Shown in pieces: positions 36,095-53,217 of a DNA stretch of 64,000 nt (position 1 is the first letter of the stretch; the number at the start of each line of letters is the position of its first letter). The notes beneath the pieces were generated by a model. That model searched no databases and was not told the origin of the DNA. It saw only the letters and a list, made by a program, of their open reading frames with translations. A program made the translations under genes and the position numbers. The DNA is taken from NCBI GenBank assembly GCA_017479265.1, contig JAFVCK010000031.1:1-64000 (forward strand). Direction: 5' to 3'. Source of the stretch: Bacteroidales bacterium (GTDB taxonomy: Bacteria > Bacteroidota > Bacteroidia > Bacteroidales > UBA932).

Positions 36095-36120
36095 GCTATT
36101 AAGTTATTTTTTCTCCTTCC

Positions 36121-37416
36121 TTATTTCCGGCGGAGGTCGATGAATTTGACGCTCTTGCGGGATTTGGCCGGGTAATTTATGGCGGCAATCTCCGGAGCCG
36201 GGCAGATTTCTATCCTGGGGGCCACCCTGATGCGTGAGCGGAACCTGTCCTTGAGGTCCTTGACGGGGTCGAAAGGCGGCTCGTACTTCAGTCCTGCCTT
36301 GATGAGCACGTCGTCGGTGCCGGCCTCGCTCTCCTGCACCATGACCACATAATTCTCGACATAGTCCGTATTGTCCAGCACGTCGTTCACTGCCGGGGGA
36401 TATAGGGTGGTGCCCTTTAGTTTTATCATGTTGTTCTTGCGGCCCACAAGCGGAGTCAGCCTGTAGGACCAGCGGCCGCAACGGCACTGCCCGGTTCTCT
36501 TGGCGGCAATGTCGCCGGTGCGGAAACGAAGAAGCGGCATTCCTTCCACTCCGAGTGTGGTTATTACTATTTCTCCGGGCTCCCCGTCGGGAACAGGCAG
36601 ATTGTCCTCTCCTATGATTTCGACTATTATCAGTTCGGGATGCACATGCCCGCCCATGCCGTATTCGCACTCTGAGAATGTCGCGCCCATCTCCGTCGAA
36701 GAATAGGTCGCGAAAAGCTGCACATCCCATTTCTCCTTGATTTTGCGGCCCAGCAGATTGAGCGAAAAGTCCTGCTCCCTAAGACCTTCTCCTATGCCTA
36801 TTATGCGCCTTACGCTGCTTGAACGGTAGTCTATCCCGTGCTCCTCGGCGTACTGGATCAGCCTAAGTATAAACGAAGGAACGCACATGATAGTGTCGGG
36901 CTTCAGCCTGGATATTGTGTCCCACTGGAGCTCGGGTATGTCGTTCCCGACCCTTATGACACCCGCTCCGAGGGAACGCAGCCCGAGGAAATAGGCCATT
37001 CCCGCCATGAAACGCTTGTCCAGGGTAGTCATAAGCTGCACTACGTCGCCGGGCCTGACTCCTGCGCAGGAGAATGACTTTTTCTCATTGAAAGCCAGCC
37101 TTTGCAAATCCTTTTCCGTGCATCCGAAAGTGACCGGCTCGCCGAGGGTCCCGGAGGTCGTCACATAGTCTATTATCTTTGATTTCGGGCAGCAAAGGAA
37201 GTCGTCACCGAACAGCTGGAGGTCCTTTTTCTCCGTGAAGGGCAGCTTCACGAGGTCCTCTATGCAGCGTATCTTCGCAGGGTCCACTCCGCATTTGGAG
37301 AACATCCTCTTGTAGTATGCGGAGTTCGCGGCGAGGTATGCTATAGCCTCCTGCAATAATTTGTCCTGCAGTTCCTTGATTTGCTCAGGTGAGCGGAATT
37401 CAATGTCTTGTGTCAT
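36121..37416 (-). CDS. PaaK-like AMP-dependent aryl-acid ligase
   Basis: A 431-residue adenylate-forming enzyme of the phenylacetate-CoA ligase type. The phosphate loop is TTSGTLGEP (86-94), followed by YSSTEMG (adenine-binding motif) near 240 and RTGD near 299; the C-terminal domain holds GRKNNMIKLKG. In this cluster it most likely activates the aromatic starter acid and loads it on CoA or an ACP. It is the last gene of the minus-strand operon and overlaps the preceding esterase gene by 17 nt. No gene for making the aryl acid (ammonia lyase, chorismate lyase) is in the window. Confidence 0.88.
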   Translation of the reverse strand: MTQDIEFRSPEQIKELQDKLLQEAIAYLAANSAYYKRMFSKCGVDPAKIRCIEDLVKLPFTEKKDLQLFGDDFLCCPKSKIIDYVTTSGTLGEPVTFGCTEKDLQRLAFNEKKSFSCAGVRPGDVVQLMTTLDKRFMAGMAYFLGLRSLGAGVIRVGNDIPELQWDTISRLKPDTIMCVPSFILRLIQYAEEHGIDYRSSSVRRIIGIGEGLREQDFSLNLLGRKIKEKWDVQLFATYSSTEMGATFSECEYGMGGHVHPELIIVEIIGEDNLPVPDGEPGEIVITTLGVEGMPLLRFRTGDIAAKRTGQCRCGRWSYRLTPLVGRKNNMIKLKGTTLYPPAVNDVLDNTDYVENYVVMVQESEAGTDDVLIKAGLKYEPPFDPVKDLKDRFRSRIRVAPRIEICPAPEIAAINYPAKSRKSVKFIDLRRK

Positions 37417-38269
37417 ATTGAAGAGTATTTAACCAGTCTATGAATGATTTTTGCCAAAGGGAAGTGCCGCCCTCCTGCCTGCGGGGATTGGCCCCGAAAC
37501 CGTGTCCTCCGCTCTTGTACAGCAGGAATTCGTGGGGGACACCCTCGGCGCGAAGGGCCGAATCCAGCAGCATGGAATTATGGAAATCGACGGTAGGGTC
37601 GTCTTCGCAGGCAAGAAGAAATACGGGCGGAAGGCCTCTGCCGGCATGTCTTTCCAGAGAAAGCGAGTCGCGAAGGGCAGAGCTTTTCATGAGCCTGTCT
37701 CCCATAAGACCGCGTCGGGAACGCCTGTGTACATACCTTTCGTCGCTCATGGTGACTACGGGGTATATGGCCGCCACAAAGTCCGGAGAATGCATCATGG
37801 AGAGCCCCTGCGTAAAGTCTCTGTCGCCAAGTTCAGCGCTCAGCATGGCAAGATGGCCTCCTGCCGAAAAGCCCATTACCCCTATCCGCTCCAGAGGGTA
37901 AGAACGCCTGACATAGCCAAGTGCCATCTGTAGGTCTGAAAGCATGTCTGGGAATACGGTTCCGCGGCTGAAGCTTCGGAAATGGTGGACAAATTCAATT
38001 TTGCCTGCGGTGCGATACTCCAGCACGAATGCGGCTATATTATTGTCGTTCAGCCATTTGGCTACAAGCGCTCCCTCGTTTTTGGTGTCCAGCCAGAAAT
38101 AACTGCCTCCCGGGCAGATAATGACCCCTGTGCCGTTGCAGTCCTCCGGCACGAAGGCCGTCAGCCTGACCTTGGCAGCAGCGCCCTTGGCCCCTTCCCA
38201 CAGCCTTGTCTGTCCGGCGGCCAGGCAGCACGCCAGAATCATGGCAGTTATGAAAGCGCTCCTTTTCAT
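37400..38269 (-). CDS. Secreted alpha/beta-hydrolase (esterase)
   Basis: A 289-residue hydrolase with a signal peptide (MKRSAFITAMILACCLAAG). The nucleophile is Ser135 in GFSAGGH, the oxyanion motif is CPGGSY (about 52), and the acid/base pair is likely Asp in ACEDDPTV and His in SGGHGFG. It resembles acetylxylan-esterase and BD-FAE-type enzymes. Inside a polyene operon it may trim or transfer an acyl group in the periplasm; this role is inferred. Overlaps the exporter gene by 4 nt. Confidence 0.82.
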   Translation of the reverse strand: MKRSAFITAMILACCLAAGQTRLWEGAKGAAAKVRLTAFVPEDCNGTGVIICPGGSYFWLDTKNEGALVAKWLNDNNIAAFVLEYRTAGKIEFVHHFRSFSRGTVFPDMLSDLQMALGYVRRSYPLERIGVMGFSAGGHLAMLSAELGDRDFTQGLSMMHSPDFVAAIYPVVTMSDERYVHRRSRRGLMGDRLMKSSALRDSLSLERHAGRGLPPVFLLACEDDPTVDFHNSMLLDSALRAEGVPHEFLLYKSGGHGFGANPRRQEGGTSLWQKSFIDWLNTLQYDTRH

Positions 38270-41200
38270 AGTTCTTCGGTCATTGTTGCCGGCGCAAGTG
38301 AATCATCGCACCATACAAGATTGGAGGGTTTCAGGGAGCAATGCTCCGCCACAAGCCTTTTCTCCTCGTCGCTTTCGAAGGCATATACCATCATGTCCTT
38401 GTGCCTCAGGGCAACCAGCAGGGGATATACTCCGTATCCGGCATTTTTAATCAGCAGGCTGTCGCCCCTGAAGGCATCCACCTTTGCATAAACTTCGGGG
38501 CGGAGGAATTTCCTGCACTCGGAGGCCACCTCGCTTCCCTTGTAGAGATAATGGTAGCGCACGAAGGAGGCGCAGTATGCGGCATTCTCCCTCTCGGCGC
38601 AGATTGCAGCGTATTTCTGCCGGTAATGGTGCCTCATGTCCCGTGTGAAAGTCCTGAGGTCCTCGGGAATATCGGAAATCCTCTGTCCGATTTCAAGGTA
38701 GAGTTCGCCCCTGTGCATGAGCTTGCTGTGCTTTGGCATCACATGGCCGAATCCGTGTCCGTATATGGGGAGTATGTCCACTCCGAGTTCGCGGGCTATG
38801 GCGAAAGCCCCCCTGTGGAAACGTGTGATACTGTAGTCTGGGCTCCTTGAGCCCTCGGGATAAATAACTATGGACCAGCCATTTGCAACTTTCTCCCTGA
38901 GTATGGGCAGCATCTTGTCCATTCCCATGGAAGCAGGCAGGAAACCCGCCTTTCGGATAAGGAATCCGTAGAATATGTTGTTCCAGGAATTGTCGTTGGT
39001 AAGCACCAGGAATTTGCCGCTAAGGGCCAGAAGACCCAGCAGGTCCAGGTTCGACTGGTGGTTGCAGATGCAGACCGCGCTCTTGGAAAAGTCCTCTCCG
39101 TAGGGATTGTTCACGGTGAAAGGAGCATCGGGAACCAGCCGGACGGCCCTCTTGCAGACCTGATGCATGGCCCCCTGGAGCATGGCCTGACGGCGTTCAC
39201 CCCTAAAGAGCACAAGGCAGACAAGGGTCCACAGGCTTATGAAAATGCAGACAGTAAGGAATACGGCGAAAGACAGGGCGGTGATAAGCAACTGCCTGAG
39301 CGTCAGAGGAATGTCTTTGTCCTTTGTGAGCCATCCGAAAATGGTGGGGGGCAGGTAGCAGGCCATTGCGACTACAGTCAGCATGCCTGTAATCGTGACC
39401 TGTGCGAGGGAACGCATGGCAGGGTGGGTCGCCGTAATCAGGGCCCCTATCCCTATGAACATTATAAGGGCCGAAAGCACCACGCTGTTGCGGAAGGAAG
39501 GGAGTATTTTCCTGCCTGTAGCCCTCTCATACATGAGGCCTTCGGTAATGAATATGCTGTAATCGTCGCCCTGTCCGAAAATGAATGCCGCCAGCACCAC
39601 ATTTACGATGTTGAATGACAGGCCGAAAACATGCATTATGCCCAGAATCCAGAACCAGGCCACGGCAAGGGGCAGGAAAGCCGTCAGGCCAAGCTCCAGG
39701 GAAGAGAATGACAGGCAGAGGAACAGAAGCACTATCAGGCTGCATACAAGGCCTATCTTGTCGAAATCTTCGGAAAGGCCTGAGGCAAGGCGGCTGCTTA
39801 CGTCGCTGCTGTCATAGCAGAAACTGCTGCCGAAAGTTGAAATGGACGGCCTTATTTCCGAGGCCTTGCCCTCAATGCGGCTGACTATCATCGTGGACCC
39901 GGTATCGCAGAATACCGAGGCTGCGCCTACGGTGGAGGCAAGAGGGGCGAAATAGGGCAGCTCTTCTATGGCGAAGTCCTTCTCCCACAGGGACATGAAA
40001 GGCCCGAAGGCGGTAGGGGAGAACCCTGCGGAGGCGGCTTCTTCAAGAAGAGTCGAAGGCAAGCCGGAATGTGCCTTCTTGAAGTCCCGCCACCTTGCGA
40101 GGGCTTTCTCCTGCGCGGCCTTTGAGGGCAGGAAAGCGCTGATTCCGGCAGCTCCGGTCTTGGCCGCGACGGCCCTGGCTTCCTCCAGAACGGCCTCTGT
40201 ATCAGTTCCTTTTGTGACAATGAAGGCAGTCTTGGAGGCATCTCCTCCCAAGGAGGCAAGAAGCGAAAAGCCCTCCTTCTGCTCCGCGCTCATATAATTG
40301 ATATGCCCCATGTCGGCATCGAAGGACACATTGCGGCCCAGCGCCCAGAGCAGGACGGTCATGCAGACAAAAAGCAGGAATACAGGTGTCCTGAACCTTG
40401 AAGGAATGGAGATTTCAAATCCGAGGTTCAGGGTCCTCCTTGGCTTAGGCGAAGGAGAAGCGAAAACTGGCAGGAACAGCAGCACGAAAAGTATAGTGCC
40501 CACAAGCATCAGCGCTCCTGTCAGTCCGAAGTCCCTGAGAGCCTCGGATTTAAGCAGCAGCATCGAAAGGAATGCTCCAACCGTGGTGATATTTCCCGTC
40601 AGCAGGGGAGAAATCTGGTCGGCGAGGGCCTGTCTCCTGTCTGGACGGTATTTGAGATGGTCCACATAGTGGAGGGGATAGTTGACCGCTATGCCGAGTA
40701 TGGTGGAGCCTATTCCGAGTATTATTATGGAAATGGTGCTGCGAAGAAGCGATATCATTCCGAGTGCGAAAAGCCCTCCGAGCAGCACCGAAACAGCTAT
40801 CCATGCCACGTCAGACAGCCTCTTGTAGGAGAAATAAAGCAGTATGCAAATCAGCAGAAGGGCAAGGCTCAGCGCCAGCAGGCTGTCCTTCTTGATGGTC
40901 CCGGCATTGCCGGCTGCAACGAGAGGTCCTCCGGTGGAAGTAATTGATACAGAAGGGAAAGCCTCTTCGGTTTGCCTTGCCGTCTGATTTACGAAGGCAT
41001 CAAGCGTGGCGTTGTCGGAGGATTCGCTGCCACCGTATGGGGAATTGAAAAACAGCACGCCGTGCCTCCCGTCGGGAGTCATCAGGCAGCCGTCCCGAAG
41101 AGTACCGCCGCTGCCGGGATTCAAGCCTTGGAGGGAGAGGTAAACGGGGTCGAAAAGGGACAGGGGGTCGGATGCGGCATGCCAAGCCGACAACTCAAGA

Positions 41201-41679
41201 GGAGATTGCAGGGAATTCTTCACCTTCTCGAGGCGGCCGCGGATATATCCCGGAGCGGCCAGAAGGCTGTCCATGCGCTCAAAGTCCTTTGCCTCAAGGA
41301 AATAGGGAATATTGGAACTTATGAAAGACAGCACCTGCTCCTCGTCCTGCTCATCCACGGCGGCGGCCCTTACGGAGGCAATCTTCCCGGCCTCGGAGCC
41401 GTTCCAATTCTCCTCGAAAGCATACATGGCATCGACTATCTCATCCGGGGAATCGCCGCTGAAAATCACGGCTACCTTGTCCTGCCCTCCTATCCTGTCA
41501 TAGACTTCGGAATATTGCCCCGACACCTCGTCACCGGGAAGGAAGGCGGCTATGTCCTCGCTGTATCCAAGACGGGATGCCAGAGCGGCCATCACGACTG
41601 TCAGCACCACCAAGGCGGCCGCCGCAGTCCTCTTCCTTTGGCTGAGGAAGTCGAATATGGACAATATCACCTTCCGCAT
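38266..41679 (-). CDS. MMPL/RND exporter fused to PlsC-type acyltransferase and a C-terminal Rossmann-like tail
   Basis: A 1137-residue inner-membrane protein. Residues 1-790 form an MMPL/SSD exporter: one helix, a large periplasmic loop, five helices, a second loop, five helices. A lysophosphatidic-type acyltransferase follows: NHQSNLD (HxxxxD) at about 873-879 and YPEGSRS at about 940. The last 100 residues (GYGVYPLLVALRHKDMMVYAFESDEEKRLV) look like the Rossmann start of a methyltransferase, too short to be complete. Separate aryl-polyene clusters have an exporter and an acyltransferase as different genes. I use the ATG at 41679, a 13-nt overlap with the glycosyltransferase; the longer frame to 41730 is unlikely. 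Confidence 0.85.
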   Translation of the reverse strand: MRKVILSIFDFLSQRKRTAAAALVVLTVVMAALASRLGYSEDIAAFLPGDEVSGQYSEVYDRIGGQDKVAVIFSGDSPDEIVDAMYAFEENWNGSEAGKIASVRAAAVDEQDEEQVLSFISSNIPYFLEAKDFERMDSLLAAPGYIRGRLEKVKNSLQSPLELSAWHAASDPLSLFDPVYLSLQGLNPGSGGTLRDGCLMTPDGRHGVLFFNSPYGGSESSDNATLDAFVNQTARQTEEAFPSVSITSTGGPLVAAGNAGTIKKDSLLALSLALLLICILLYFSYKRLSDVAWIAVSVLLGGLFALGMISLLRSTISIIILGIGSTILGIAVNYPLHYVDHLKYRPDRRQALADQISPLLTGNITTVGAFLSMLLLKSEALRDFGLTGALMLVGTILFVLLFLPVFASPSPKPRRTLNLGFEISIPSRFRTPVFLLFVCMTVLLWALGRNVSFDADMGHINYMSAEQKEGFSLLASLGGDASKTAFIVTKGTDTEAVLEEARAVAAKTGAAGISAFLPSKAAQEKALARWRDFKKAHSGLPSTLLEEAASAGFSPTAFGPFMSLWEKDFAIEELPYFAPLASTVGAASVFCDTGSTMIVSRIEGKASEIRPSISTFGSSFCYDSSDVSSRLASGLSEDFDKIGLVCSLIVLLFLCLSFSSLELGLTAFLPLAVAWFWILGIMHVFGLSFNIVNVVLAAFIFGQGDDYSIFITEGLMYERATGRKILPSFRNSVVLSALIMFIGIGALITATHPAMRSLAQVTITGMLTVVAMACYLPPTIFGWLTKDKDIPLTLRQLLITALSFAVFLTVCIFISLWTLVCLVLFRGERRQAMLQGAMHQVCKRAVRLVPDAPFTVNNPYGEDFSKSAVCICNHQSNLDLLGLLALSGKFLVLTNDNSWNNIFYGFLIRKAGFLPASMGMDKMLPILREKVANGWSIVIYPEGSRSPDYSITRFHRGAFAIARELGVDILPIYGHGFGHVMPKHSKLMHRGELYLEIGQRISDIPEDLRTFTRDMRHHYRQKYAAICAERENAAYCASFVRYHYLYKGSEVASECRKFLRPEVYAKVDAFRGDSLLIKNAGYGVYPLLVALRHKDMMVYAFESDEEKRLVAEHCSLKPSNLVWCDDSLAPATMTEEL

Positions 41680-42377
41680 ATCTTTCCAAGAAGCATCCTG
41701 GGATATCCGTAAACGACAGCAAGAAGGCACAGGCAGACATTCAGCAGGCTTATCCTGGAGAAATCCCTGACGGGCTTGAAAGAGGAAACCCTGTCCTCGG
41801 GGTACAGCACCCTTATGGGGACGGGAACAAGGGGTATGCCTTTCCAGGCGGAGAACACCAGAAGGGCCAGTTCGGCCTCATATCGGGCGCTGAATATCCC
41901 CGGAAGCCTTTCCAGGGGATAGGACCTCAGGCCTGTCTGGGTGTCCGGCAGGCTTCTGAGGGTCTGCACCTTGAACCAGAAATTGGAGAAGCGGTTGGCA
42001 AATGCCGATCCCTTGGAAAGGTGCAGGGAGGGAAGGTCGCGGCTGCCGACTACAAGGGCGCGGGGCTCAAGTGCCGAGGCTTCTTCCAGAAGGGGAATAT
42101 CCTCGGGGTAATGCTGACCGTCGCCGTCCAGGGTGACAACCCTGCCGTAGCCCGCTTTGCGGGCATATTCGAAGCCGGTTTTAAGAGCCATTCCTTTCCC
42201 GAGGTTCTTTTTGTGGGTCAGAAGGGTGATTTCCAGCCCCTCAAGCGAAGCGCCGCTGCCGTCCGTGCTGCCGTCGTCCACGACGATGACGGGAAGCCCC
42301 TGCAGGATAGCCCTCGAGGCAACGTCCCTAATCGTCCGGACATTGTTATATACCGGTATGAGCACGGCACTATTCAT
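41667..42377 (-). CDS. Family 2 glycosyltransferase
   Basis: A 236-residue GT-A enzyme of the dolichyl-phosphate-mannose-synthase type. VDDGSTDGSG (33-42) binds the nucleotide, and DGDGQHYPED (84-93) carries the metal-binding Asp; an SRDLPSL/KGSAFANRFSN region follows. A hydrophobic stretch near the C-terminus (LLNVCLCLLAVVYGYPRM) may anchor it to the membrane. In polyene clusters a glycosyltransferase/acyltransferase links the polyene to a lipid anchor. It overlaps genes on both sides. Confidence 0.88.
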   Translation of the reverse strand: MNSAVLIPVYNNVRTIRDVASRAILQGLPVIVVDDGSTDGSGASLEGLEITLLTHKKNLGKGMALKTGFEYARKAGYGRVVTLDGDGQHYPEDIPLLEEASALEPRALVVGSRDLPSLHLSKGSAFANRFSNFWFKVQTLRSLPDTQTGLRSYPLERLPGIFSARYEAELALLVFSAWKGIPLVPVPIRVLYPEDRVSSFKPVRDFSRISLLNVCLCLLAVVYGYPRMLLGKICGR

Positions 42378-42663
42378 ATTCCATCACCATTTTGGCGCAG
42401 ATTTCCCCCTTCTTGCAGATAAGGACCCGGCCGCCTGATTCTTCTATCCTGGCCTCGTCCCCGGGCATTAGAGGGGAGACAAAGCGGATGTTCCTGGCCG
42501 AAGAGAGAGTCTGTCCGGGATGCAGCATCTCGGTCACTATGCGCACTATGCAGACTCCGGGAGTTATGGGATAGCCCGGAAAATGCGCCTTGTATATCAC
42601 TGAGGAGGGGAGAAGGCGGAATGTGTCGGGCCCCGTCCTTTGGAACAGTTCACCTTCCAGCAT
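42370..42663 (-). CDS. FabZ-like hot-dog dehydratase (short)
   Basis: A 97-residue single hot-dog protein. HFPGYPITPGV (His27) is the FabZ active-site motif; the partner Glu is likely in VTEML (residue about 44). FabZ is normally about 145 residues, so the N- and C-terminal strands are reduced, as in the ApeI-type dehydratases of aryl-polyene clusters. It likely dehydrates the 3-hydroxyacyl-ACP intermediates, possibly together with the product at 47380. Confidence 0.8.
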   Translation of the reverse strand: MLEGELFQRTGPDTFRLLPSSVIYKAHFPGYPITPGVCIVRIVTEMLHPGQTLSSARNIRFVSPLMPGDEARIEESGGRVLICKKGEICAKMVMEYE

Positions 42664-43225
42664 CGAAAATCCTCCCGTCGTCTTTAATATCCCATTCCAT
42701 TCCGGAGAACTCTATGAGAGTGCTGTCTCCGGAGGGGTTGAACAGTTCTATTGCCATAATGTAAAGTTCTGAGGTATAGACATATATCTCTGAAAACAGT
42801 CTCTTCAGGTCCCGCCTTTTGGGGCGCATGGACACTTTCCATCCACCGCCTGTCCTCTCGGCGGACATGTCGAATAGAGCCGGGTCGAAAAGCCTGGCGG
42901 AAAGATCCGGAAGCCTTCCGGGCATCCCGGATTCGGAAGCGGAGCGGCTGCTTCCGTCGGGAAGGCGGACAAGGTCCCCGTCCATAATGAATACGCTCTC
43001 CGAAGGAGTGAAGGTCTCCCAGCGCAGTTTGGTAGGTGGAATTACGCTTATGCGTCCGGTGGTGACGAGGTCGCCGCTCAGCATGGACGAACGCCTTGTC
43101 ATGGTGAAAAGTGCGCTGAAACTCCTGCCTCCGTTGGCCTTCTCAAGGGAGGAAAGAATGTCCTCCTGCGCCCTCAGTACAAGGGTGCAGAGCAGGGCGG
43201 AGAGTATGAGCAGCAGCCTTTTCAT
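42650..43225 (-). CDS. LolA-like outer-membrane lipoprotein carrier
   Basis: A 191-residue periplasmic protein: signal peptide MKRLLLILSALLCTLVLRAQ, then an open beta-barrel fold of LolA type (FSALFTMTRRSSMLSGDL, GRISVIPPTKLRWE, IELFNPSGDSTLIEFSGMEW). It probably carries the hydrophobic polyene lipid across the periplasm, as LolA homologues in such clusters are thought to do. Start at the ATG at 43225, which overlaps the DMT gene stop by 4 nt. Confidence 0.8.
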   Translation of the reverse strand: MKRLLLILSALLCTLVLRAQEDILSSLEKANGGRSFSALFTMTRRSSMLSGDLVTTGRISVIPPTKLRWETFTPSESVFIMDGDLVRLPDGSSRSASESGMPGRLPDLSARLFDPALFDMSAERTGGGWKVSMRPKRRDLKRLFSEIYVYTSELYIMAIELFNPSGDSTLIEFSGMEWDIKDDGRIFDAGR

Positions 43226-45460: not shown

Positions 45461-45718
45461 TTATTCGCCCCTGTGTTCTTTGATATATGCCGCCATGGTC
45501 GCTACGGAAGAGAAAACCTTTCGGCCTTCCTGGGGGCTTGAAAGCTTGATTCCGTAATTCTTCTCCATCATCACTATCAGTTCGAGCACGTCTATGGAAT
45601 CAAGGCCCAGCCCGTCTCCGAACAGGGGAGCGTCGTCCTCTATGTCGGAGGGCTCCATGCCTTCTAGGTTAAGTGCATCTATCAGCTTGATTTTCAGTTC
45701 TTCTATAAGCTTATCCAT
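45461..45718 (-). CDS. Acyl carrier protein
   Basis: An 85-residue four-helix ACP. The phosphopantetheine site is Ser41 in GLGLDSIDVLEL; the acidic recognition helix (DSIDVLELIVMMEKNYGI) is normal. It is one of two ACPs in the cluster; the other is at 48652. The two differ strongly outside the Ser motif, suggesting separate work (for example starter loading and chain extension). Confidence 0.93.
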   Translation of the reverse strand: MDKLIEELKIKLIDALNLEGMEPSDIEDDAPLFGDGLGLDSIDVLELIVMMEKNYGIKLSSPQEGRKVFSSVATMAAYIKEHRGE

Positions 45719-46277
45719 TATCGTATAGTTGTTTTATCCTGTTTTGGTCCAATTCTTTGCCGTCCGCCAGGGCGAGCATCAGCAGCACGTCCGCTTCCTC
45801 CTCGCAGGGGCAGTCTATCCAGCCGAAAATGACTTCCTTTCCTTCCATTTCCATCATGCAGTCCTGCACGTGGGGGGCAATTTCCTTCTCGTCGAAGGCG
45901 GGGAGCAGGAAGGAGGCGCTTTCCCCCTTGCAGCCGTTGCGGATGCAGATTTCGCCTGTCACTATGTTGGGCAGGGTATAGACGAAAAGAGCCGGGCTGG
46001 GGAAGTCTTTCATAGACTCCAGGTAGGCCAGGTCGTCGCTTATGCATCCGCTGCGGGAAAACACTATGACAGAACGGTTTTCATTTGCCTCCATCCCCTC
46101 CAGCAGCAGTTCGCAGGCGAGGAATCCAGCCTTGCACTGAAGGTCCATCTTGTAGAATTTCGGCCAGTTGCCGCAGGCGCTCTTGTATAAGGAGCCCAGG
46201 GAACCGTCGTAGGCGAGTTCCTTTCCGTTCCGGGTCAGCCTTGAGCCTTTCAGCCTTATGTAGGAGAGAATCTTCAT
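45711..46277 (-). CDS. Ketosynthase-like non-catalytic protein
   Basis: A 188-residue protein set between KS and ACP genes. MDLQCKAGFLACELLLEG, SVIVFSRSGCISDDLAYLESM and PALFVYTLPNIVTGEICIRNGCKGESASFLLP follow the core of the thiolase/KS fold, but no Cys-His-His triad can be placed and it is about half the normal length. Such short KS-like proteins occur in Bacteroidota polyene-type clusters; a structural or regulatory partner of a KS is likely. Overlaps both neighbours (4 and 8 nt). Confidence 0.65.
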   Translation of the reverse strand: MKILSYIRLKGSRLTRNGKELAYDGSLGSLYKSACGNWPKFYKMDLQCKAGFLACELLLEGMEANENRSVIVFSRSGCISDDLAYLESMKDFPSPALFVYTLPNIVTGEICIRNGCKGESASFLLPAFDEKEIAPHVQDCMMEMEGKEVIFGWIDCPCEEEADVLLMLALADGKELDQNRIKQLYDNG

Positions 46278-47383
46278 TGCCTGCCTCCTTTCTTGAAAAT
46301 GGCGGCGGCATTGCAGCCTCCGAATCCGGACATCAGTTTTATGAAGCAGTCTCCTTGAACGCTGACAGGCCCGGAGGATATGTCAAGGGCAGGCTCGGTG
46401 CCCGGGGAATTATAGCCCATGGCTCCGGGAATCATGCCCTTGTCCATGGCCATCATGCCTATTATGCTCTCGAGCACTCCCGCGGCTCCCATGGTATGGC
46501 CGAAAATGCCTTTCAGCGAGCATATGGGAAGCTTTTCCAGATGGGCGCGGCCCAGAGCCACAGCCTCCATGGCATCGTTGTAGAGGGTCGCGGTGCCGTG
46601 AGGACAGACCATTGCAGGGGCAAGTCCTGTCTGCAGCACATGGCGCAGGGCCTCGAAACTGCCTTCAGCCGTGCGCGAGGGGCCTGAAATGTGGTTGGCA
46701 TCGTTGCGGATGGCTCCGTCCACGATTTCCCAGGGACCTTCGTCAGCGGAAAGTATCACGGTGGCTGCCGCCTCTCCTAGGTTGAGCCCGCATCTGTTCG
46801 CGTCGAAAGGACGGCAGGGCTCAGGCGAAAGGGCCTTCAGGGACTGGAACCCCGTGACTATGAAGGCTCCCTGGCTCTCGGCTCCGCAGACTACCACATT
46901 GCGGGCCCGTCCGGAGCGTATCATCCTCATGCCCTGTATCATTGCGTTAAGTCCTGATATGCAGGCATTTGAAACCGTCAGGGGAGTGCAGAGAGGCTTG
47001 AAGCGCGAGACTATCCTCGAGGATGAAGCGCCGAGGCTCACATCCGCTCCGCTGCCGAGCAGTTCCACATTGCCCTTGGTAGTGGACAGAATAAAGGCCG
47101 TATCGGGGGCCGCAGGGTCTATGTCGCTGCCTTCCAGAGCCTTGTGTATGGACAGCATAGATAGGGTCTCGTAGAAACTGTAGCCCTCTATGCCTGTTCC
47201 GGCGGCCTGACCATATATCTTTTCCCTGTCGAAAAGGGCCGCCATGAAAGGCTCCCTGACCCCGAAGGTCCCCTCGTGCAGCCTGACTCCGGACCTGCCT
47301 TCCATGCAGGCGAGATATGCCTCGCAGGAGCCCTCCGCCACGGGAGAGAGAATATGGTGCGATATTACCGAAACCTTTCTCAT
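46274..47383 (-). CDS. Beta-ketoacyl-ACP synthase
   Basis: A 369-residue condensing enzyme, more diverged than the one at 44303. Catalytic residues: Cys141 (SNACISG), His262 (CPHGTATLYND), His296 (GIFGHTMGAAG). The complete triad argues for activity; the altered surroundings (CPHGTA instead of NAHGTG) suggest a special step such as priming with the aryl unit. Overlaps the dehydratase gene by 4 nt. Confidence 0.9.
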   Translation of the reverse strand: MRKVSVISHHILSPVAEGSCEAYLACMEGRSGVRLHEGTFGVREPFMAALFDREKIYGQAAGTGIEGYSFYETLSMLSIHKALEGSDIDPAAPDTAFILSTTKGNVELLGSGADVSLGASSSRIVSRFKPLCTPLTVSNACISGLNAMIQGMRMIRSGRARNVVVCGAESQGAFIVTGFQSLKALSPEPCRPFDANRCGLNLGEAAATVILSADEGPWEIVDGAIRNDANHISGPSRTAEGSFEALRHVLQTGLAPAMVCPHGTATLYNDAMEAVALGRAHLEKLPICSLKGIFGHTMGAAGVLESIIGMMAMDKGMIPGAMGYNSPGTEPALDISSGPVSVQGDCFIKLMSGFGGCNAAAIFKKGGRQ

Positions 47384-47796
47384 CTGACCGCCGTCTTGAT
47401 TATGGCCGAGGCTATTTGCTCGTTTCCTGCATGCACGCCCACCTCCATCATGGTGATTCCGAATACATCCTCTATGACCCGCACATCCGTGAGAAGGGTC
47501 TCTCCTATTGAAGGCAAACGGCTAATTTTCAGATGCTTGACATCGCCTATCATGCCTATCCTGGTGGGGATGTGGAGTATGTATTTGCACATGTATCCCG
47601 CCCTTGCCGCTGCGCTCTGGGCCATGTTCTCTATCAGTCCCTCGGCGCTCAGATGTCCGTTTTCGCACAGCAGGCTCTCCCTGACCGTGTAGGCGCAGGT
47701 ACATTCCCTGTCCTGATAGCAAAGCATCCTGTCCACGAAGCGGAAAGGCTCCTGCTGCAGGAGAATATCGTCCATTATGACATCTTCAGGCCTCAT
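47380..47796 (-). CDS. 3-hydroxyacyl-ACP dehydratase (ApeP-like hot-dog)
   Basis: A 138-residue hot-dog protein. GHLSAEGLIENMAQSAAARAG holds the likely catalytic His48 and Glu56; the start ILLQQEPFRFVDRML is typical of this group. With the short hot-dog at 42370 it may form the heteromeric dehydratase known from aryl-polyene systems (ApeI/ApeP). The ATG at 47796 gives an 11-nt overlap with the acyltransferase; ATG 47775 is an alternative start. Confidence 0.83.
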   Translation of the reverse strand: MRPEDVIMDDILLQQEPFRFVDRMLCYQDRECTCAYTVRESLLCENGHLSAEGLIENMAQSAAARAGYMCKYILHIPTRIGMIGDVKHLKISRLPSIGETLLTDVRVIEDVFGITMMEVGVHAGNEQIASAIIKTAVR

Positions 47797-48655
47797 TCCA
47801 AAAATCGTAAAAGTTGAACCATTGGTCGGGATAACGGCGTACCACGCTCTCCAGGGCACCGGCATAGCTGCGGGCCAGAGCCTCAGCGCTGTCTCCTTTC
47901 AATGCCTTGATTATCAGCCGGTAACGGTGGGTGCTCTCCTTCATGGACCATACCGCCACCATGGGCACTTCCTTTGCCATGGCAAGTGCGAAGGGCCCTT
48001 TGGGGAAGCGGGCGTATTCTCCGAGGAAGGGCAGCCTTATGTTCTTTTTCGAACCGAATATCCTGTCGGCAGGCATGCTGGCTATGTCCCCTCGGGAAAG
48101 CACGTCGTTAAGTACGAATATATGCGTAAGGTCCTCGCTGACAGGCACCATCCTGATGTTGGTGCCGTTGAACATTTTCTGCCGGCCGGCCATTACCTCG
48201 GGGGTTTCCCCGGCGAAAACCAGGGCGTTTATGCATTTTTCCCTGGTCGGAATGGAATAACCGGCCAGTTCGTAGTTGCCCACATGGGAGCTCAGCATCA
48301 CGAATCCGCCTTCCCGTCCAAGCAGGCGCTGGAAATCTTCATCACCCTCCCTTTCAAAGTCGAATTTCACCCCTGCGTATGCCGCGAACCTGTCTATCAC
48401 CAGCTTGCCCATCTGGTAATGGTTGCCCAGAACATGGGCGAAGGACTTCAAGGGGCCGTATCCAAGCCTGTCCCTGAAAAAGGAGAAGGATGAACGGTAG
48501 CCTTTCCCGAAAATCATGTAGAAGGGTATGGCCGGGGCCATGAGGCAGTAGGCAAGGGGCAAAGGGACAAAACTCAGAAGGCTCGTCAAAGCCTTCTGCA
48601 TCCAGGGGGTACCGTCGGTATGTCCCTGCCAGCGCGTATGAGTGTAAGACGTCAA
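47786..48655 (-). CDS. LPLAT/HtrB-like acyltransferase
   Basis: A 289-residue membrane-bound acyltransferase of the lipid A lauroyl-transferase group. A membrane segment lies near 24-48; the catalytic motif is His124-x4-Glu129 (SSHVGNYE); RLPFLGEYARFPKGP corresponds to the substrate-binding block. In polyene clusters this enzyme likely moves the finished chain to a lipid acceptor. Overlaps the ACP gene by 4 nt. Confidence 0.88.
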   Translation of the reverse strand: MTSYTHTRWQGHTDGTPWMQKALTSLLSFVPLPLAYCLMAPAIPFYMIFGKGYRSSFSFFRDRLGYGPLKSFAHVLGNHYQMGKLVIDRFAAYAGVKFDFEREGDEDFQRLLGREGGFVMLSSHVGNYELAGYSIPTREKCINALVFAGETPEVMAGRQKMFNGTNIRMVPVSEDLTHIFVLNDVLSRGDIASMPADRIFGSKKNIRLPFLGEYARFPKGPFALAMAKEVPMVAVWSMKESTHRYRLIIKALKGDSAEALARSYAGALESVVRRYPDQWFNFYDFWNEA

Positions 48656-48891
48656 ACCCTGTCGGAAAGGAAGTCGCAGAATTCCTTGTATGTCTTTATG
48701 TCCTTGAAATCTTCGGGCTTCATCTTGTAGCCGAAGGACTTCTCCACTTCCACCACCACATCTACCACCTCCAGGCTGTCTATCCCGAGGTCCTCCTTGA
48801 GTCTGGCCCCGGGGGTTATCTTATCCTCCTCTATTTCAAGTTCTTCCGTAAGGAAGGCCTTGATTCTCTCTTCAATCTGCTTATAGTCCAT
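48652..48891 (-). CDS. Acyl carrier protein
   Basis: A 79-residue ACP with Ser39 in GIDSLEVVDVVVEVEKSFG as phosphopantetheine site and a highly acidic N-terminal helix (FLTEELEIEEDKI). It overlaps the hydrolase gene by 11 nt. It is closer to the standard FabD/FabF-type ACP than the one at 45461. Confidence 0.95.
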   Translation of the reverse strand: MDYKQIEERIKAFLTEELEIEEDKITPGARLKEDLGIDSLEVVDVVVEVEKSFGYKMKPEDFKDIKTYKEFCDFLSDRV

Positions 48892-49633
48892 ATCGTTGCT
48901 TAATAAAATCCGTTGATGTTGCCGTTATCTGTGCGCGGCAGCGGCGCATAAGGTGTCCTTCCCCATCCAGAACAATGAGCCGGCTGTCCTTGTAGAGGCT
49001 GTCATACCGCTCGCTGTACCTGAGCGGGACTATCTTGTCCTCCCTGCCGTGGACAAGCAGGACGGGACCCTCGTACAGGGCGGAGGTATCGTATATGGGA
49101 AGCGTCTGCGCCGCAAGGAAATAGCCCTTCCCGACCTTGTGGAAAAGCACCCACAGGGTCTCGGGGGGATTTTGCGGGTCGTATTTCCTGCCCATCAGCA
49201 CCCCGTCAAGAGCATCATCCTTCAGTACTGCGGCAGGAGCCAGCTGCACCAGACAGTCCACCTTGTCCTTGCCGAGGGTCCCTGCGAGCATCCCCGCCAC
49301 AACCGCTCCCTGGGAGTGCCCGAGAAAGCTTATCCCCTTGACCCACGGGAGTTTGCTGGCATATTCATAGACCCTTCGGGCATCCTCAATTTCCTTCGGC
49401 ACTGTCATGTCGCGGAAGCGTCCGTAACTCTCTCCGTGCCCGTCGAAATCCATGCTCAGCGATGCTATTCCAACCTCTTCCAGAGCCTTGGCTATGCTTT
49501 TGAGTGGCTCCAGTCCCTTGTTGGACATGAAACCGTGCATCAGGATGACCAGAGGGCATCCTTCAGCGGCAGGCCGGCGCAACAATGCTGCAATTGTACC
49601 GCCTTCTGCCTCTATATACAGTTTCCGCTCCAT
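48881..49633 (-). CDS. Alpha/beta-hydrolase (cinnamoyl-esterase-like)
   Basis: A 250-residue cytoplasmic serine hydrolase. Oxyanion MHGFMSNK (about 32), nucleophile Ser107 in GHSQGA, acid Asp in HGREDKIVP (about 197), and His in DGEGHLM. The fold resembles feruloyl/cinnamoyl esterases (Est1E). As first gene of the polyene operon it might act as the thioesterase/editing hydrolase that other aryl-polyene clusters have as a hot-dog protein; this is inferred from its place and from the lack of another thioesterase. Confidence 0.82.
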   Translation of the reverse strand: MERKLYIEAEGGTIAALLRRPAAEGCPLVILMHGFMSNKGLEPLKSIAKALEEVGIASLSMDFDGHGESYGRFRDMTVPKEIEDARRVYEYASKLPWVKGISFLGHSQGAVVAGMLAGTLGKDKVDCLVQLAPAAVLKDDALDGVLMGRKYDPQNPPETLWVLFHKVGKGYFLAAQTLPIYDTSALYEGPVLLVHGREDKIVPLRYSERYDSLYKDSRLIVLDGEGHLMRRCRAQITATSTDFIKQRYGL

Positions 49634-49645
49634 AAATGGTAATTC

Positions 49646-49804
49646 ATGTTCAAAAAATTACTTGCATCATTTTGCGAATCTTGCCGGCTTCTTTGAATTT
49701 TGTCATCAGTCATGCAGCTACGGCTGCACTCCTTCTTCCAAAATCCAAACAATCTCAGCAATCTTCTACAAAATTTGATGCAACTTATTTTTTTCTCATT
49801 CCTA
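49646..49804. repeat. Long copy of the dispersed palindromic repeat, in the polyene leader
   Basis: A 159-bp element that begins ATGTTCAAAAAATTACTTGC and ends CTTATTTTTTTCTCATTCCT A, the same ends as the 63-bp copy at 11691-11753. It is an imperfect long palindrome: arms TTGCATCA/TGATGCAA, then TTTGAATTTTG/CAAAATCCAAA, then GCAGC/GCTGC around a TACG loop. It fills most of the 302-bp gap between the divergent polyene genes. No open frame of note lies inside. If the minus-strand promoter at 49814 is used, almost the whole leader is this hairpin. Confidence 0.7.
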
Positions 49805-49813
49805 TATATTTTA

Positions 49814-49821
49814 CAAAAATA
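49814..49821 (-). promoter_or_regulatory. -7 box for the 16-gene polyene operon
   Basis: TATTTTTG on the minus strand fits TAnnTTTG. The transcript would begin near 49808 and have a leader of about 175 nt containing the palindromic repeat. No good TTTG at -33. Confidence 0.5.
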
Positions 49822-49854
49822 GCAAATTATTCCCACATTTTGGAATATTATCAT

Positions 49855-49862
49855 TACTTTTG
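49855..49862 (+). promoter_or_regulatory. -7 box for the plus-strand polyene genes
   Basis: TACTTTTG fits TAnnTTTG and is 73 bp before the KS start at 49936. TTTG at 49839-49842 is too close (12 bp) to serve as a normal -33. Confidence 0.45.
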
Positions 49863-49935
49863 TAAGAAGCCGCCGGGATTTTTGTTCTTGTAAAGAACAG
49901 CGTGATTGATTTGGCGGCATGTAAGCAAGGAGAAT

Positions 49936-51156
49936 ATGAAAAGAAAAGCGGTTATAACCGGCATGGGAATATGGTCCTGTCTCGGGACAGATACTCTCCA
50001 GGTGAGGGATTCGCTCTATGAGGGCAGGTCCGGTATAGTGCTGGACCCTTCCAGAAAGGAAATGGGCTTCAGAAGCGCCCTTACGGCCCTCGTCCCTTCG
50101 CCTTCGCTTAAGTCCGAGCTGAGCCGCAATGTCCGTACTTTCATGTCCCAGGAGGCCCAATACGCCTATTGCGCCACGAGGGATGCCCTCGCGCAGGCCC
50201 GACTTGACGGAGATTTCCTCGCGTCCAACGACGTGGGACTTCTGTACGGCAACGACAGTTCCGCGGAGTCCGTCTATACCGCGCTTCGGACTGTGGAGGA
50301 GAAAAAGGATACCATGCTGTGCGGGGCCGGAGCCATTTTCCGTTCCATGAATTCCAATGTCTCGATGAACCTCGGGTGTATCTTCAAGTTGCGCGGGATA
50401 AACCTCACCGTGTCAGGTGCTTGCGCCAGCGGCTCACATGCAATAGGACTGGCGGCCATGCTGGTGTCTTCCGGCTTGCAGGACATAGTCGTATGCGGCG
50501 GTGCCCAGGAGGTGAATCCTTACGGAGTGGCAGCCTTCGACGGCATATCGGCCTTCTCTATGAGGGAGGACGAGCCCGCCCGTGCAAGCCGTCCTTTCGA
50601 CAGGGACAGGGACGGGCTGGTGCCGGGAGGAGGTGCCGCTACTCTTGTTGTCGAAAGCCTTGAAAGCGCTGCCCGAAGGGGTGTCAGGCCCATTGCCGAG
50701 ATACTTGGATACGGTTTCTCTTCCAACGGGGACCATATTTCGACCCCCAATGTGGAAGGTCCGGCGAAATCCCTTGAAATGGCCCTCCGCTCCTCCGGCG
50801 TGAGCCTTCGTGAAATAGGCTATATAAACGCGCATGCCACTTCCACCCAGGTCGGAGATGCCAATGAGGCCAGGGCCATAAGTTCGGTAATAGGGGACAG
50901 CGGCATACCTGTCACCAGCACCAAGGGCCAGACGGGACACGAAATGTGGATGGCCGGAGCCAGCGAAGTCATATATTCTATACTGATGATGAAGGGAGGC
51001 TTCATTGCCGGCAATCTCAATTTCGAGCATCCGGACGAGGCCTCGGCTCGGCTGAACATTCCCGCCCTGCGCATAGACAGGGGATTCAACTGCTTCATTT
51101 CCAACTCCTTCGGGTTCGGAGGGACCAATTCTACCCTCGTGGTCGGCAATGTCTGA
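49936..51156 (+). CDS. Beta-ketoacyl-ACP synthase (FabB/FabF-like)
   Basis: A 406-residue condensing enzyme, the third catalytic KS of the cluster. Triad: Cys163 (SGACASGSHAIG), His300 (INAHATSTQVGD), His335 (GQTGHEMWMAGASE). The ATHST-like and GHEMWMAG surroundings are close to FabB/ApeR-type enzymes. The ATG at 49936 is preceded by AAGGAG. It is the first of three divergent genes and overlaps the flavoprotein by 8 nt. Confidence 0.92.
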   Translation: MKRKAVITGMGIWSCLGTDTLQVRDSLYEGRSGIVLDPSRKEMGFRSALTALVPSPSLKSELSRNVRTFMSQEAQYAYCATRDALAQARLDGDFLASNDVGLLYGNDSSAESVYTALRTVEEKKDTMLCGAGAIFRSMNSNVSMNLGCIFKLRGINLTVSGACASGSHAIGLAAMLVSSGLQDIVVCGGAQEVNPYGVAAFDGISAFSMREDEPARASRPFDRDRDGLVPGGGAATLVVESLESAARRGVRPIAEILGYGFSSNGDHISTPNVEGPAKSLEMALRSSGVSLREIGYINAHATSTQVGDANEARAISSVIGDSGIPVTSTKGQTGHEMWMAGASEVIYSILMMKGGFIAGNLNFEHPDEASARLNIPALRIDRGFNCFISNSFGFGGTNSTLVVGNV

Positions 51157-52507
51157 GAAGTCCGTCATAATCATAGGCTCCGGCCTTGGAGGACTTGAAT
51201 GTGCCCTGCTTCTGTCACGGGCTGGATTCAAGGTCACGGTGCTGGAGAAGGCCGCCGCTGAGGGAGGCTGCATGCAGACCTTCTTGAGGAACGGCCGCCG
51301 CTTTGACACGGGCTTTCACTATGCGGGCGGAGTCGAAGGGGTGCTGGCTCCTTATCTGGAGCTGTTCGGACTAAGCGGACTGCCATGGAAAAAACTTGAC
51401 GAAGATGCTGTAGAAGAGCTTTATATAAAAGGTGAAAAATACTGTCATCCAAGCGGGTATGCAGCATTCGAAGAGAGGTTTGCCCCGCTTTTCGGAAGGG
51501 AGGCTATGCGCTCCTGGCTGGATGTATTGAGGCGCATAGGGGAGAGCATGGCGGCACCTTTCGGACCAAGGGACGAGGGGTGGTTTTCGACTCCTGCCCT
51601 TGGCTGGCTCCGAAGCCTTGGAGGACAGGCCTTTGCCGATGCTCTGGCAGGAGCGGCCTTGAGGATGCCCGTCTTGGAAGGCACTCCGCTTTATTGCTAT
51701 GCCCAGGTTTACAATTCTTTCGTGCAGGGTGCATGGAGGCTTGGGGGCGGAGGAAAGACCTTGACGGATGCCCTCATGACCGGAATAAAGAAAAACGGCG
51801 GCATTGTAAGGACATCTGAGAAGGTGCAGCAAATAATTGTAAAAGAAGCGGTTGCGAAGGGAGTTGTCACCGGGCGTGGACGCTACGAGGCTGACTGGGT
51901 CATCTCCGACATTCACCCCTCGCTGCTGACTTCCCTTGTGCCAGGACTTAGGAAATCCTTTGTCGGAAGGCTTGTGAACTCTCCTTCAGGAAGGGGAGCC
52001 TTCACCGTGAACCTCGTGCTGAAACAGGGGATCCTCAGGTACAAAAACAGCTCCATGCATATCTGCAAAGGCGATTTGCAGGATGCCATGATGGTGCATT
52101 GGTATGTTCCGGAAACTGGCGTTTATGCCCCGGCCATTGACCTTCTCCGGATGGTTGACCTGCCTTCGGAGGTGGATTATCCGCAGTGGAAAGAGAGAAT
52201 GTGCAGGGAAATGGTCGCCCTTGCCGGAGAATATGTCCCCGGACTTGAAGATGCGATTGAAGCGGTATATTCCAGTTCTCCGCTCACTTGGGAAAGATAC
52301 ACAGGGACCCCTGGCGGTTCGGCCTTCGGATATGTCAAGGACTGCCGCAGTCCCTTTGCCGGATTCCTCAGCCCCAGGACCCCTCTGCCCGGCCTTCTTA
52401 TGACAGGGCAGAACCTTAATCTGCACGGCCTTGCAGGAGTCTCAATGACTGCTTTATATACCTGCGCTGAAATACTTGGTAAACAATATATTGAAGATTT
52501 GATATGA
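51149..52507 (+). CDS. CrtI/retinol-saturase-like FAD oxidoreductase
   Basis: A 452-residue flavoprotein of the phytoene-desaturase/all-trans-retinol-13,14-reductase group. The dinucleotide motif GSGLGGLECALLLSRAGFKV (8-27) is followed by GGCMQTF and TGFHYAGGVEG; the C-terminal FAD contact is LLMTGQNLNLHGLAGVSMTA. The family adds or removes double bonds in isoprenoid polyenes; here it sits between a ketosynthase and a ketoreductase, so it may act on the aryl polyene. Not a usual part of the E. coli-type cluster. Overlaps both neighbours. Confidence 0.85.
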   Translation: MSEKSVIIIGSGLGGLECALLLSRAGFKVTVLEKAAAEGGCMQTFLRNGRRFDTGFHYAGGVEGVLAPYLELFGLSGLPWKKLDEDAVEELYIKGEKYCHPSGYAAFEERFAPLFGREAMRSWLDVLRRIGESMAAPFGPRDEGWFSTPALGWLRSLGGQAFADALAGAALRMPVLEGTPLYCYAQVYNSFVQGAWRLGGGGKTLTDALMTGIKKNGGIVRTSEKVQQIIVKEAVAKGVVTGRGRYEADWVISDIHPSLLTSLVPGLRKSFVGRLVNSPSGRGAFTVNLVLKQGILRYKNSSMHICKGDLQDAMMVHWYVPETGVYAPAIDLLRMVDLPSEVDYPQWKERMCREMVALAGEYVPGLEDAIEAVYSSSPLTWERYTGTPGGSAFGYVKDCRSPFAGFLSPRTPLPGLLMTGQNLNLHGLAGVSMTALYTCAEILGKQYIEDLI

Positions 52508-53217
52508 GATACGCTTTAGTGACCGGAGGCAGCCGCGGTATAGGCCGCGCCATTTGTATTGAACTGCATCGTATGGGATACTTCGTGCTGGTCAATTACC
52601 TGTCCCGCGAACAGGAGGCCCGCCGTACCCTGGAGTGCATTGGAGGGGAAGGTGAACTGATGCCTTTCGACGTGGGGGATGCCGCGGCAGTATCGGAGGC
52701 CCTGTCGGCCTGGAGCGCGGCCCATCCGGACCAGTACATAGAGGTCCTTGTGAACAATGCCGGAATACGCAGGGACAACCTCATGCTGTGGATGGAAGAA
52801 GGGGACTGGATGGATGTCATAAGGACTTCCCTTGACGGCTTCTACAATGTCACCAGGCCTTTGCTCCAGCCTATGGTCCTGCATAAGTTCGGAAGAATCA
52901 TTAACATAGCCTCCCTTTCCGGAAGAAAAGGTTTGCCGGGCCAGACCAATTATTCCGCTGCCAAGGGCGGGCTCATGGCCGCTACCAAGGCCCTGGCCTG
53001 CGAAATAGGCCGCAAAGGGGTGACTGTCAATGCCGTAGCCCCGGGATTCATACGTACCGACATGCTGGAGGGACTTGACGAAAAGGAACTTAAAAAGACA
53101 ATTCCTGCGGCGCGTTTCGGAGAGCCCGAAGAGGTGGCCGCCCTGGTAGGGTTCCTGGCCTCGGAAAAGGCCTCCTACATAAGCGGGGAATGCATAGGGA
53201 TTACCGGCGGGCTATAG
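52504..53217 (+). CDS. 3-oxoacyl-ACP reductase (FabG-like SDR)
   Basis: A 237-residue short-chain dehydrogenase. NADP site GGSRGIGRA (8-16), NNAG near 91, catalytic Ser in IASLSGRKG, Tyr-x3-Lys in NYSAAKGG (about 159-163), and VNAVAPGFIRTDM. It should reduce the 3-keto group after each condensation in polyene synthesis (ApeQ role). Overlaps the flavoprotein by 4 nt, and its end overlaps the convergent YhiN-family gene by 17 nt. Confidence 0.92.
   Translation: MRYALVTGGSRGIGRAICIELHRMGYFVLVNYLSREQEARRTLECIGGEGELMPFDVGDAAAVSEALSAWSAAHPDQYIEVLVNNAGIRRDNLMLWMEEGDWMDVIRTSLDGFYNVTRPLLQPMVLHKFGRIINIASLSGRKGLPGQTNYSAAKGGLMAATKALACEIGRKGVTVNAVAPGFIRTDMLEGLDEKELKKTIPAARFGEPEEVAALVGFLASEKASYISGECIGITGGL

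Follow-up and report, generated by a model that had tools for sequence, protein, structure and literature searches.

A flexirubin-type aryl polyene cluster with a cinnamoyl-esterase-type gene in a Bacteroidales genome where no tyrosine ammonia-lyase was found

In Chitinophaga pinensis, as described in the main text of PMC3992019, from which the flx gene list used here was drawn, the tyrosine ammonia-lyase FlxA converts tyrosine to 4-coumarate and FlxY then forms the CoA ester; this FlxY prefers 4-coumarate and also accepts cinnamate, 3-phenylpropionate, indole-3-propionate, and indoleacrylate. Flexirubin-like clusters are already known in gut Bacteroidales: PMC12940132 describes one of the arylpolyene type in the gut species Bacteroides xylanisolvens and notes its likeness to the flexirubin cluster of C. 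pinensis. Additionally, PMC8241843 gives aryl polyenes (APEs) as the second commonest cluster class reported in rumen genomes (2,800 of 14,814), and PMC11839114 describes the flavoaffinins, aryl polyenes of the anaerobic fibre degrader Clostridium thermocellum. Among titles and abstract openings, which covered few subscription journals, none described a polyene cluster that contains a cinnamoyl esterase or takes its starter from the diet, and none dealt with the starter origin of rumen aryl polyenes. Here, a gene cluster is analyzed that lies in 64,000 nucleotides of a Bacteroidales bacterium (assembly GCA_017479265.1, contig JAFVCK010000031.1, positions 1 to 64,000), referred to below as the window. 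It encodes a FlxY orthologue together with abH, a hydrolase of the cinnamoyl-esterase type, and FlxA was found neither in the cluster nor in the source genome, which is 89% complete.

Cluster family and the missing start of the pathway

The cluster spans positions 36121-53217, where all 19 open reading frames (ORFs) listed by an earlier sequence-only reading are present in two divergent gapless runs. It is assigned by homology to the flexirubin-type aryl polyenes, the family that reading had proposed, because FlxY and FlxB exceed curated flexirubin cut-offs, the ketosynthases (KSs) group with flexirubin enzymes, and the parts match Ape proteins. FlxY (36121..37416, minus strand), a PaaK-like ligase orthologous to the flexirubin 4-coumarate-CoA ligase, scores 674.3 bits against NCBIfam NF053551 (cut-off 520), and the ketoreductase FlxB (52504..53217, plus strand), 44% identical to ApeQ, scores 371.1 bits against NF053542 (cut-off 340). 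In a tree of 23 rows, built without the wrongly cut sequence G016_KS1, KS1, KS2, and KS3 each join flexirubin orthologues of other families (support 92/95, 100/100, and 100/100), apart from the genome's own FabF, and an origin in primary fatty-acid synthesis is thereby rejected. Ten window proteins match the E. coli CFT073 Ape set by BLASTP at E <1e-4, namely KS1-3, the acyl carrier proteins ACP1 and ACP2, the FabG-type reductase, the dehydratase HD1, GT2, the LPLAT protein, and the MMPL fusion, with KSh1 and HD2 matching weakly; ApeB, ApeK, and ApeH have no counterpart among the window proteins. The APE set in the broad sense is complete, comprising KS and chain-length factor, ACPs, ketoreductase, dehydratase, acyltransferase and glycosyltransferase, LolA, and MMPL.

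Strictly, the cluster does not qualify as a flexirubin cluster, since neither DarB nor a FlxJ-type methyltransferase was found in the genome. The Dar search used a DarB query only, with no genome-wide search for DarA; the query, which passes NF053539 and whose own genome was not rerun as a positive control, had no match. No PF00891 (Methyltransf_2) domain, which a FlxJ-type protein matches, occurs in the genome either. In place of a flexirubin, the product would therefore be an aryl polyene lipid without methylation. As the sequence-only reading stated, Pfam reveals no thioesterase, full methyltransferase, or aromatic-acid gene among the window proteins, although no genome-wide thioesterase search was made. 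That reading had also counted the CrtI-like flavoprotein as a non-standard part, which did not hold: a homologue lies near FlxY in six of the ten loci fetched from other families (G206, G319, G244, G375, G386, and G401; two of the ten loci lack nearby cluster genes), so the gene is ordinary. The real oddity of the cluster is its missing pathway start.

The only PF00221 lyase in the genome is HutH, which bears out the absence of an aromatic-acid gene. It scores 602 bits with the HutH model (cut-off 539) and 349 with the FlxA model (cut-off 700), and is flanked by HutU- and HutI-type genes, the HutU, truncated where the fetched sequence stops, scoring 331 against a cut-off of 375. A FlxA mis-called as HutH was rejected on these scores and neighbours. 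Outside the genus, every FlxY-bearing genome sampled (24 of 24) carries a lyase of the FlxA score class; in a sequence comparison of 11 of these lyases, identity was 51-64% to the FlxA of G016 and 32-34% to HutH. Within the genus, FlxY exceeds its cut-off in 43 of 200 genomes, and FlxA occurs in 25 of the 43, all sequence-checked at 62-75% identity to the G016 reference, which itself passes the NCBIfam FlxA model (845 bits, cut-off 700).

Among the 18 genomes with FlxY and no FlxA, four (G061, G511, G013, and G088) lack any PF00221 match, and 13, the source genome included, carry HutH, the other twelve copies being 79-87% identical to its own HutH and 33-35% to FlxA; the single match in G003, of the HutH score class, was not compared by sequence. 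Besides the source genome, 13 FlxA-less genomes have a lyase match, and mis-calling was thus also rejected for 12 of them. Completeness reaches 90% or more in 12 of the 18, and 100% in one; about 0.6 absences would be expected from incompleteness. On a FlxY tree of 65 of 67 rows, the FlxA-less state requires 9 changes, and supported branches force a minimum of 4 of these, with bootstrap not fully settled. The two omitted sequences, G487:C7:10490-11764 and G499:C76:13742-15016, each have one in-frame TAG stop.

FlxY itself does not follow the presence of FlxA. The window protein has a mean identity of 80% to FlxA-less and FlxA-bearing relatives of the same cluster type alike, and a single R/K position differs consistently between the two groups (64 of 67 rows; G487, G499, and G166 dropped). 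An altered FlxY in FlxA-less genomes was accordingly rejected, and because the ligase shows no such difference, an external hydroxycinnamate is likely to be needed as the starter.

The hydrolase abH and its linkage to FlxY

The gene abH (48881..49633, minus strand) is the first of the minus run. Its sequence, predicted structure, and catalytic triad agree on an assignment to the cinnamoyl/chlorogenic-acid-esterase type, as the sequence-only reading had suggested: its best PDB matches are chlorogenic and cinnamoyl esterases, the top eleven rows of the structure search are all of this kind, and the predicted fold aligns over about 245 residues, near full length, including the inserted subdomain. 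The Ser-Asp-His triad is kept as S107/D199/H227. When compared with the residues described for LJ0536 (PMC3158066), namely Asp138, Tyr169, and Gln145, abH has D140 and Y171 as equivalents of the ring-binding Asp138 and Tyr169, and all of 20 further relatives share this Asp.

The missing aromatic-acid gene and the esterase-like hydrolase turn out to be linked to each other. In seven of the 43 FlxY-bearing genomes (G000, G494, G493, G488, G069, G090, and G016), abH is a cluster gene or a direct neighbour of FlxY, and six of these seven lack FlxA, as do 12 of the other 36 (one-sided Fisher p 0.015, uncorrected for kinship, as are the variants). The p value is 0.044 when every abH of 50% identity or more is counted, 0.032 without the source genome, and 0.020 with any match of at least about 40%. 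A wider search of 400 genomes of the genus gave 65 with a match at E 1e-60, part of them already known, and the neighbourhoods of 20 new matches were fetched. Eight are close orthologues (57-67%), of which five lie in polyene clusters, the one in G660 stands beside FlxY, and those of G624 and G717 are unlinked in the stretch; the cluster of G602 has the window's own layout, including the absence of the methyltransferase. Of the 12 more distant copies (50-60%), 10 adjoin polyene-cluster genes, that of G559 adjoins only est on a short contig, and that of G713 is unlinked; FlxY was not found in the fetched stretches of these 12 loci. FlxA is not in the stretches around abH of G602, G648, G570, G666, G585, and G660, where no genome-wide FlxA search was made.

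Further settings of abH were recorded. Three of the 10 loci with a distant abH copy adjoining polyene-cluster genes were scanned (G453, G084, and G601), and all three encode an AMP-binding ligase between the MMPL-acyltransferase gene and the esterases; for the G453 ligase, the top PDB match is feruloyl-CoA synthetase, in a superfamily that is very broad. A second polyene cluster type (L409, L417, and L418, also L411 and others) carries the AMP-binding ligase, then abH and usually est, without FlxY in the stretch; in L417 a small ACP precedes the ligase. Unrelated to FlxY, this ligase seems to stand in for it. In G090 (20 kb) and G660 (a 7-kb contig), abH and FlxY are followed by an acyltransferase gene of the MBOAT/DltB type and a gene of about 305 codons (L255:13273-17710 and L405:496-5086), with no polyene genes in the stretch, a set that possibly serves hydroxycinnamoylation of a surface polymer; in G499 (L257), a broken FlxY lies beside the same two genes. 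The orthologue in L401 (G624:C33) has no polyene genes around it and lies near homologues of the flanking genes of the window cluster (up3 85%, up1 89%), perhaps marking a lineage that lost the cluster and retained abH.

Possible sources of the polyene starter

A rumen origin of the source organism is probable, because its close relatives are mostly titled as ruminant or rumen genomes. A scan of genome contigs for FlxY gave 346 loci; every title among the best 80 (79-86% identity) names a Bacteroidales or Bacteroidia bacterium, in keeping with the lineage given by the sequence-only reading, many name a ruminant organ or rumen genome set, and one names horse faeces.

Because no FlxA was found and a cinnamoyl-esterase-type gene lies in the cluster, the polyene may be started from hydroxycinnamic acids that would be cut from plant esters and not made from tyrosine, a reading given about an even chance of being right. 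In this scheme, abH would release p-coumarate or a related acid inside the cell from incoming esters, perhaps aided by est, which may act likewise outside the cell, and FlxY would activate the released acid to its CoA thioester. The KS and chain-length-factor pairs would then extend the starter by malonyl units on ACP1 and ACP2, with FlxB reducing and HD1 and HD2 dehydrating; the acyltransferases and GT2 would attach the polyene to a lipid; and MMPL and LolA would carry this lipid to the outer membrane. The steps after the starter are modelled on the E. coli APE scheme as outlined in PMC8253772, and every catalytic step, starter supply included, is deduced from gene content, absences, linkage, and residue conservation. 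If the starter does come from feed, the structure and amount of the pigment would track diet, lignocellulose phenolics would have a direct sink in a bacterial outer-membrane lipid, and the persistence of FlxY in genomes without FlxA would have a simple, testable reason. More tentatively, with somewhat less than an even chance, the esterase-ligase pair could be a movable phenolic-capture module of ruminant-gut Bacteroidales that has repeatedly displaced tyrosine ammonia-lyase as the starter source, the pigment then being built on a plant-cell-wall hydroxycinnamate. Next to an MBOAT acyltransferase, the pair would find a further use in decorating a different surface polymer, and in the second cluster type the esterases would work with the unrelated feruloyl-CoA-synthetase-like ligase.

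Several observations weigh against a starter cut from plant esters. Twelve of the 18 FlxA-less genomes have no linked abH, nor any abH of at least 50% identity genome-wide, so abH is not a general replacement for FlxA and the acid must be acquired in another way there. G016 has FlxA together with a cluster abH in which the Asp138 equivalent is changed to Glu, G516 has FlxA with an unlinked abH, and the copies of G624, G717, and G713 are likewise unlinked; where abH lies in clusters without a nearby FlxY, the role of the esterases could instead concern the product. Gln145 of LJ0536, which matters for substrate choice, corresponds to Met147 in abH (and to Leu in Est1E), and the ring-binding Asp is missing in four of seven distant paralogues at 37-46% identity. 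By eye, abH shows no evident export signal, which means that its ester substrate has to reach the cell interior. Of 148 columns invariant in FlxY outside the genus, the window protein deviates at 19, most of these deviations being shared with FlxA-bearing relatives. Finally, est occurs both with and without FlxA, beside FlxY in either case, and was rejected on that ground as a correlate of FlxA loss and as its replacement.

An ordinary flexirubin-type pathway, in which FlxA lies in the absent 11% of the genome, coumarate comes from tyrosine, and the esterases are accessory, is an unlikely explanation. With the genome 89% complete, there is about one chance in nine that FlxA lies in the absent part, and since the stretch around FlxA holds no cluster genes in 16 of the 25 FlxA-bearing genomes, a lone FlxA could sit on an unassembled piece. 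The 12 FlxA-less genomes of at least 90% completeness and the over-representation of abH where FlxA is missing argue the other way.

The esterases might alternatively act on the product, with est and abH hydrolyzing or transferring the polyene acyl group in place of the AAT-type acyltransferase and the thioesterase; this, too, is thought rather unlikely. Classical FlxY loci hold a protein of about 555 residues (AAT family PF03417 in the one scanned), a 4HBT thioesterase, a methyltransferase, and often FlxA, all of which the window cluster lacks. The gene est (37400..38269, minus strand; PF20434, BD-FAE/Abhydrolase_3, nearest PDB entries 7dwc and 6a6o), which has an apparent signal peptide by eye and adjoins FlxY in 77 of the 80 loci, sits where those clusters hold the 555-residue protein, between the MMPL/CrtI genes and FlxY. 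The persistence of abH and est in polyene clusters without a nearby FlxY fits the same idea. It is countered by the abH-FlxY pairs of G090 and G660, which have no polyene genes in their fetched stretches, and by the predicted abH pocket for a free 4-hydroxyphenyl ring. For est alone, action on the product is as good an explanation as a role in starter release, and est may be either the outside-cell partner of abH or a substitute for the AAT-type protein.

More doubtful still is an external starter of other origin, such as 3-phenylpropionate from other rumen microbes, taken up without abH. The side substrates that PMC3992019 lists for the C. pinensis FlxY (3-phenylpropionate, indole-3-propionate, and indoleacrylate) and the 12 FlxA-less genomes without linked abH would suit it, but the pairing of abH with FlxY and the kept Asp that binds the 4-hydroxyl favour 4-hydroxycinnamate. 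That there is no polyene pathway and the cluster yields a fatty acid, ordinary or modified, is very improbable. In its favour, KS3 stands near FabB and ApeR in the tree, as the entire KS3 group does, flexirubin proteins included; against it are the KS1 and KS2 groups, the presence of FlxY and FlxB, and the Ape-like set of parts.

Cluster layout and comparison with known systems

The minus run comprises 16 genes from 49633 leftwards to 36121, with ends overlapping or abutting, and the plus run comprises three genes from 49906 to 53217; each is presumably a single operon. The functional calls of the sequence-only reading for the ligase, esterase, GT2, LolA, DMT, KS, ACP, alpha/beta hydrolase, CrtI-like, and FabG proteins are supported by Pfam or NCBIfam. 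On the minus strand, est is preceded by a gene for an MMPL exporter fused to an acyltransferase of the 1-acylglycerol-phosphate type (38266..41730; PF03176 and PF01553, homologous to ApeM and ApeD), one ORF of 1154 residues with an uncertain start codon. The exporter and LPLAT of the sequence-only reading are thus both present, except that the exporter carries an acyltransferase of its own, which makes two LPLAT domains. By eye, the C-terminal 110 or so residues of the fusion (window 38266-38600) resemble a fragment of a class I methyltransferase, and Pfam gives no match. Next come the GT2 glycosyltransferase (41667..42377; PF00535), 33% identical to ApeJ and like its N-terminal half; the small hot-dog dehydratase HD1 (42370..42663), 33% identical to ApeI (E 5e-8) with weak FabZ similarity; the LolA-like periplasmic carrier (42650..43282; PF03548), which belongs to the LolA family and misses NCBIfam LolA2_flexi (55.9 bits, cut-off 125); and an ArnE-like DMT/EamA small membrane protein (43222..43647; PF00892, below the NCBIfam cut-off).

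Further along the same strand lie KSh1 (43563..44306; PF13723), a Cys-less chain-length factor of 247 residues that is weakly ApeC-like (E 0.01); KS1 (44303..45460), 36% identical to ApeO; ACP1 (45461..45718), 51% identical to ApeE and above the NF006617 cut-off; KSh2 (45711..46277), of 188 residues; and KS2 (46274..47383). KSh2 has no Pfam or NCBIfam match; its AlphaFold model (pLDDT 82.7) shows the KS/chain-length-factor fold in Foldseek at modest significance, with ApeC (6qsp_B, E 2.3e-4) among the matches, and homologues occur in flexirubin loci. A Cys-less partner and a half-length one had been listed by the sequence-only reading, and both exist, but both, not one only, are about half-length, and neither has a Cys-His-His motif. 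The three full triads it listed were found by motif position at C149/H282/H317 in KS1, C141/H262/H296 in KS2, and C173/H310/H345 in KS3. The run is completed by HD2 (47380..47865, start uncertain), a hot-dog dehydratase with a weak ApeP match (25%, E 0.002), the second of the two dehydratases listed there, neither of which matches Pfam; an LpxL-type acyltransferase (47786..48655; PF03279), 27% identical to ApeJ and like its C-terminal half; ACP2 (48652..48891), 39% identical to ApeF; and abH. Between the runs, a divergent promoter region of about 270 bp (49634..49905) has one TAnnTTTG box per strand, at 49855 (plus) and 49821 (minus), in a pattern scan without a significance test; this motif is taken here as the Bacteroidetes promoter consensus. 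The plus run consists of KS3 (49906..51156), 35% identical to ApeR; the CrtI/CrtD-like flavoprotein (51149..52507; Pfam and NCBIfam), whose homologues lie in other Bacteroidota flexirubin loci; and FlxB.

Among the relatives, where gene presence was scored by tblastn since simple ORF calls often gave antisense ORFs, the order KS2-KSh2-ACP1-KS1-KSh1-DMT-LolA-HD1-GT2-MMPL/LPLAT-est-FlxY is widely kept in loci long enough. An acyltransferase of about 370 residues is matched in 73 of the 80 loci, and it follows FlxY wherever a locus was read one gene at a time; in the window, a convergent DUF5692 gene takes its place (36040-36120). A subtype (L011:5704-9047 and L020:4271-9098) has the CrtI-like gene, a B12-type radical SAM gene, and a conserved 120-residue protein of unknown family between MMPL and est, the latter two each matched in 27 of the 80 loci.

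The closest described relative is the flexirubin cluster of C. pinensis and Flavobacterium johnsoniae (flxA-Y with darA/darB), which, as far as its main-text description goes, shares FlxY, FlxB, five KS-like proteins, two dehydratases, a glycosyltransferase, an acyltransferase, LolA, and an exporter with the window. In contrast, FlxA, FlxJ, and DarB were not found in the window genome, and its cluster lacks the thioesterase and the AAT-type protein and adds est and abH. Compared with the APE cluster of E. coli CFT073 (apeA-R), the window has counterparts of ApeO, ApeR, ApeE, ApeF, ApeQ, ApeI, ApeJ, ApeD, and ApeM, with ApeC and ApeP weak and ApeB, ApeK, and ApeH unmatched; the two halves of ApeJ are separate and ApeM and ApeD are fused, while KS2/KSh2, the CrtI-like protein, est, and abH are extra. 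The B. xylanisolvens cluster is also flexirubin-like in gut Bacteroidales, a likeness that follows from its published description and not from sequence. As for the hydrolase, abH shares the predicted fold, the triad, and the Asp138 and Tyr169 equivalents with LJ0536 of Lactobacillus johnsonii and Est1E of Butyrivibrio proteoclasticus, to which it is about 38% and 32% identical, and differs in the replacement of Gln145 by Met and in being encoded inside a polyene gene run. The flavoaffinins resemble the predicted product in being aryl polyenes of an obligate anaerobe dwelling on plant cell walls; as PMC11839114 reports them, they differ in having a type I polyketide synthase as the candidate enzyme and in drawing their aryl groups, according to feeding, from Phe and Tyr.

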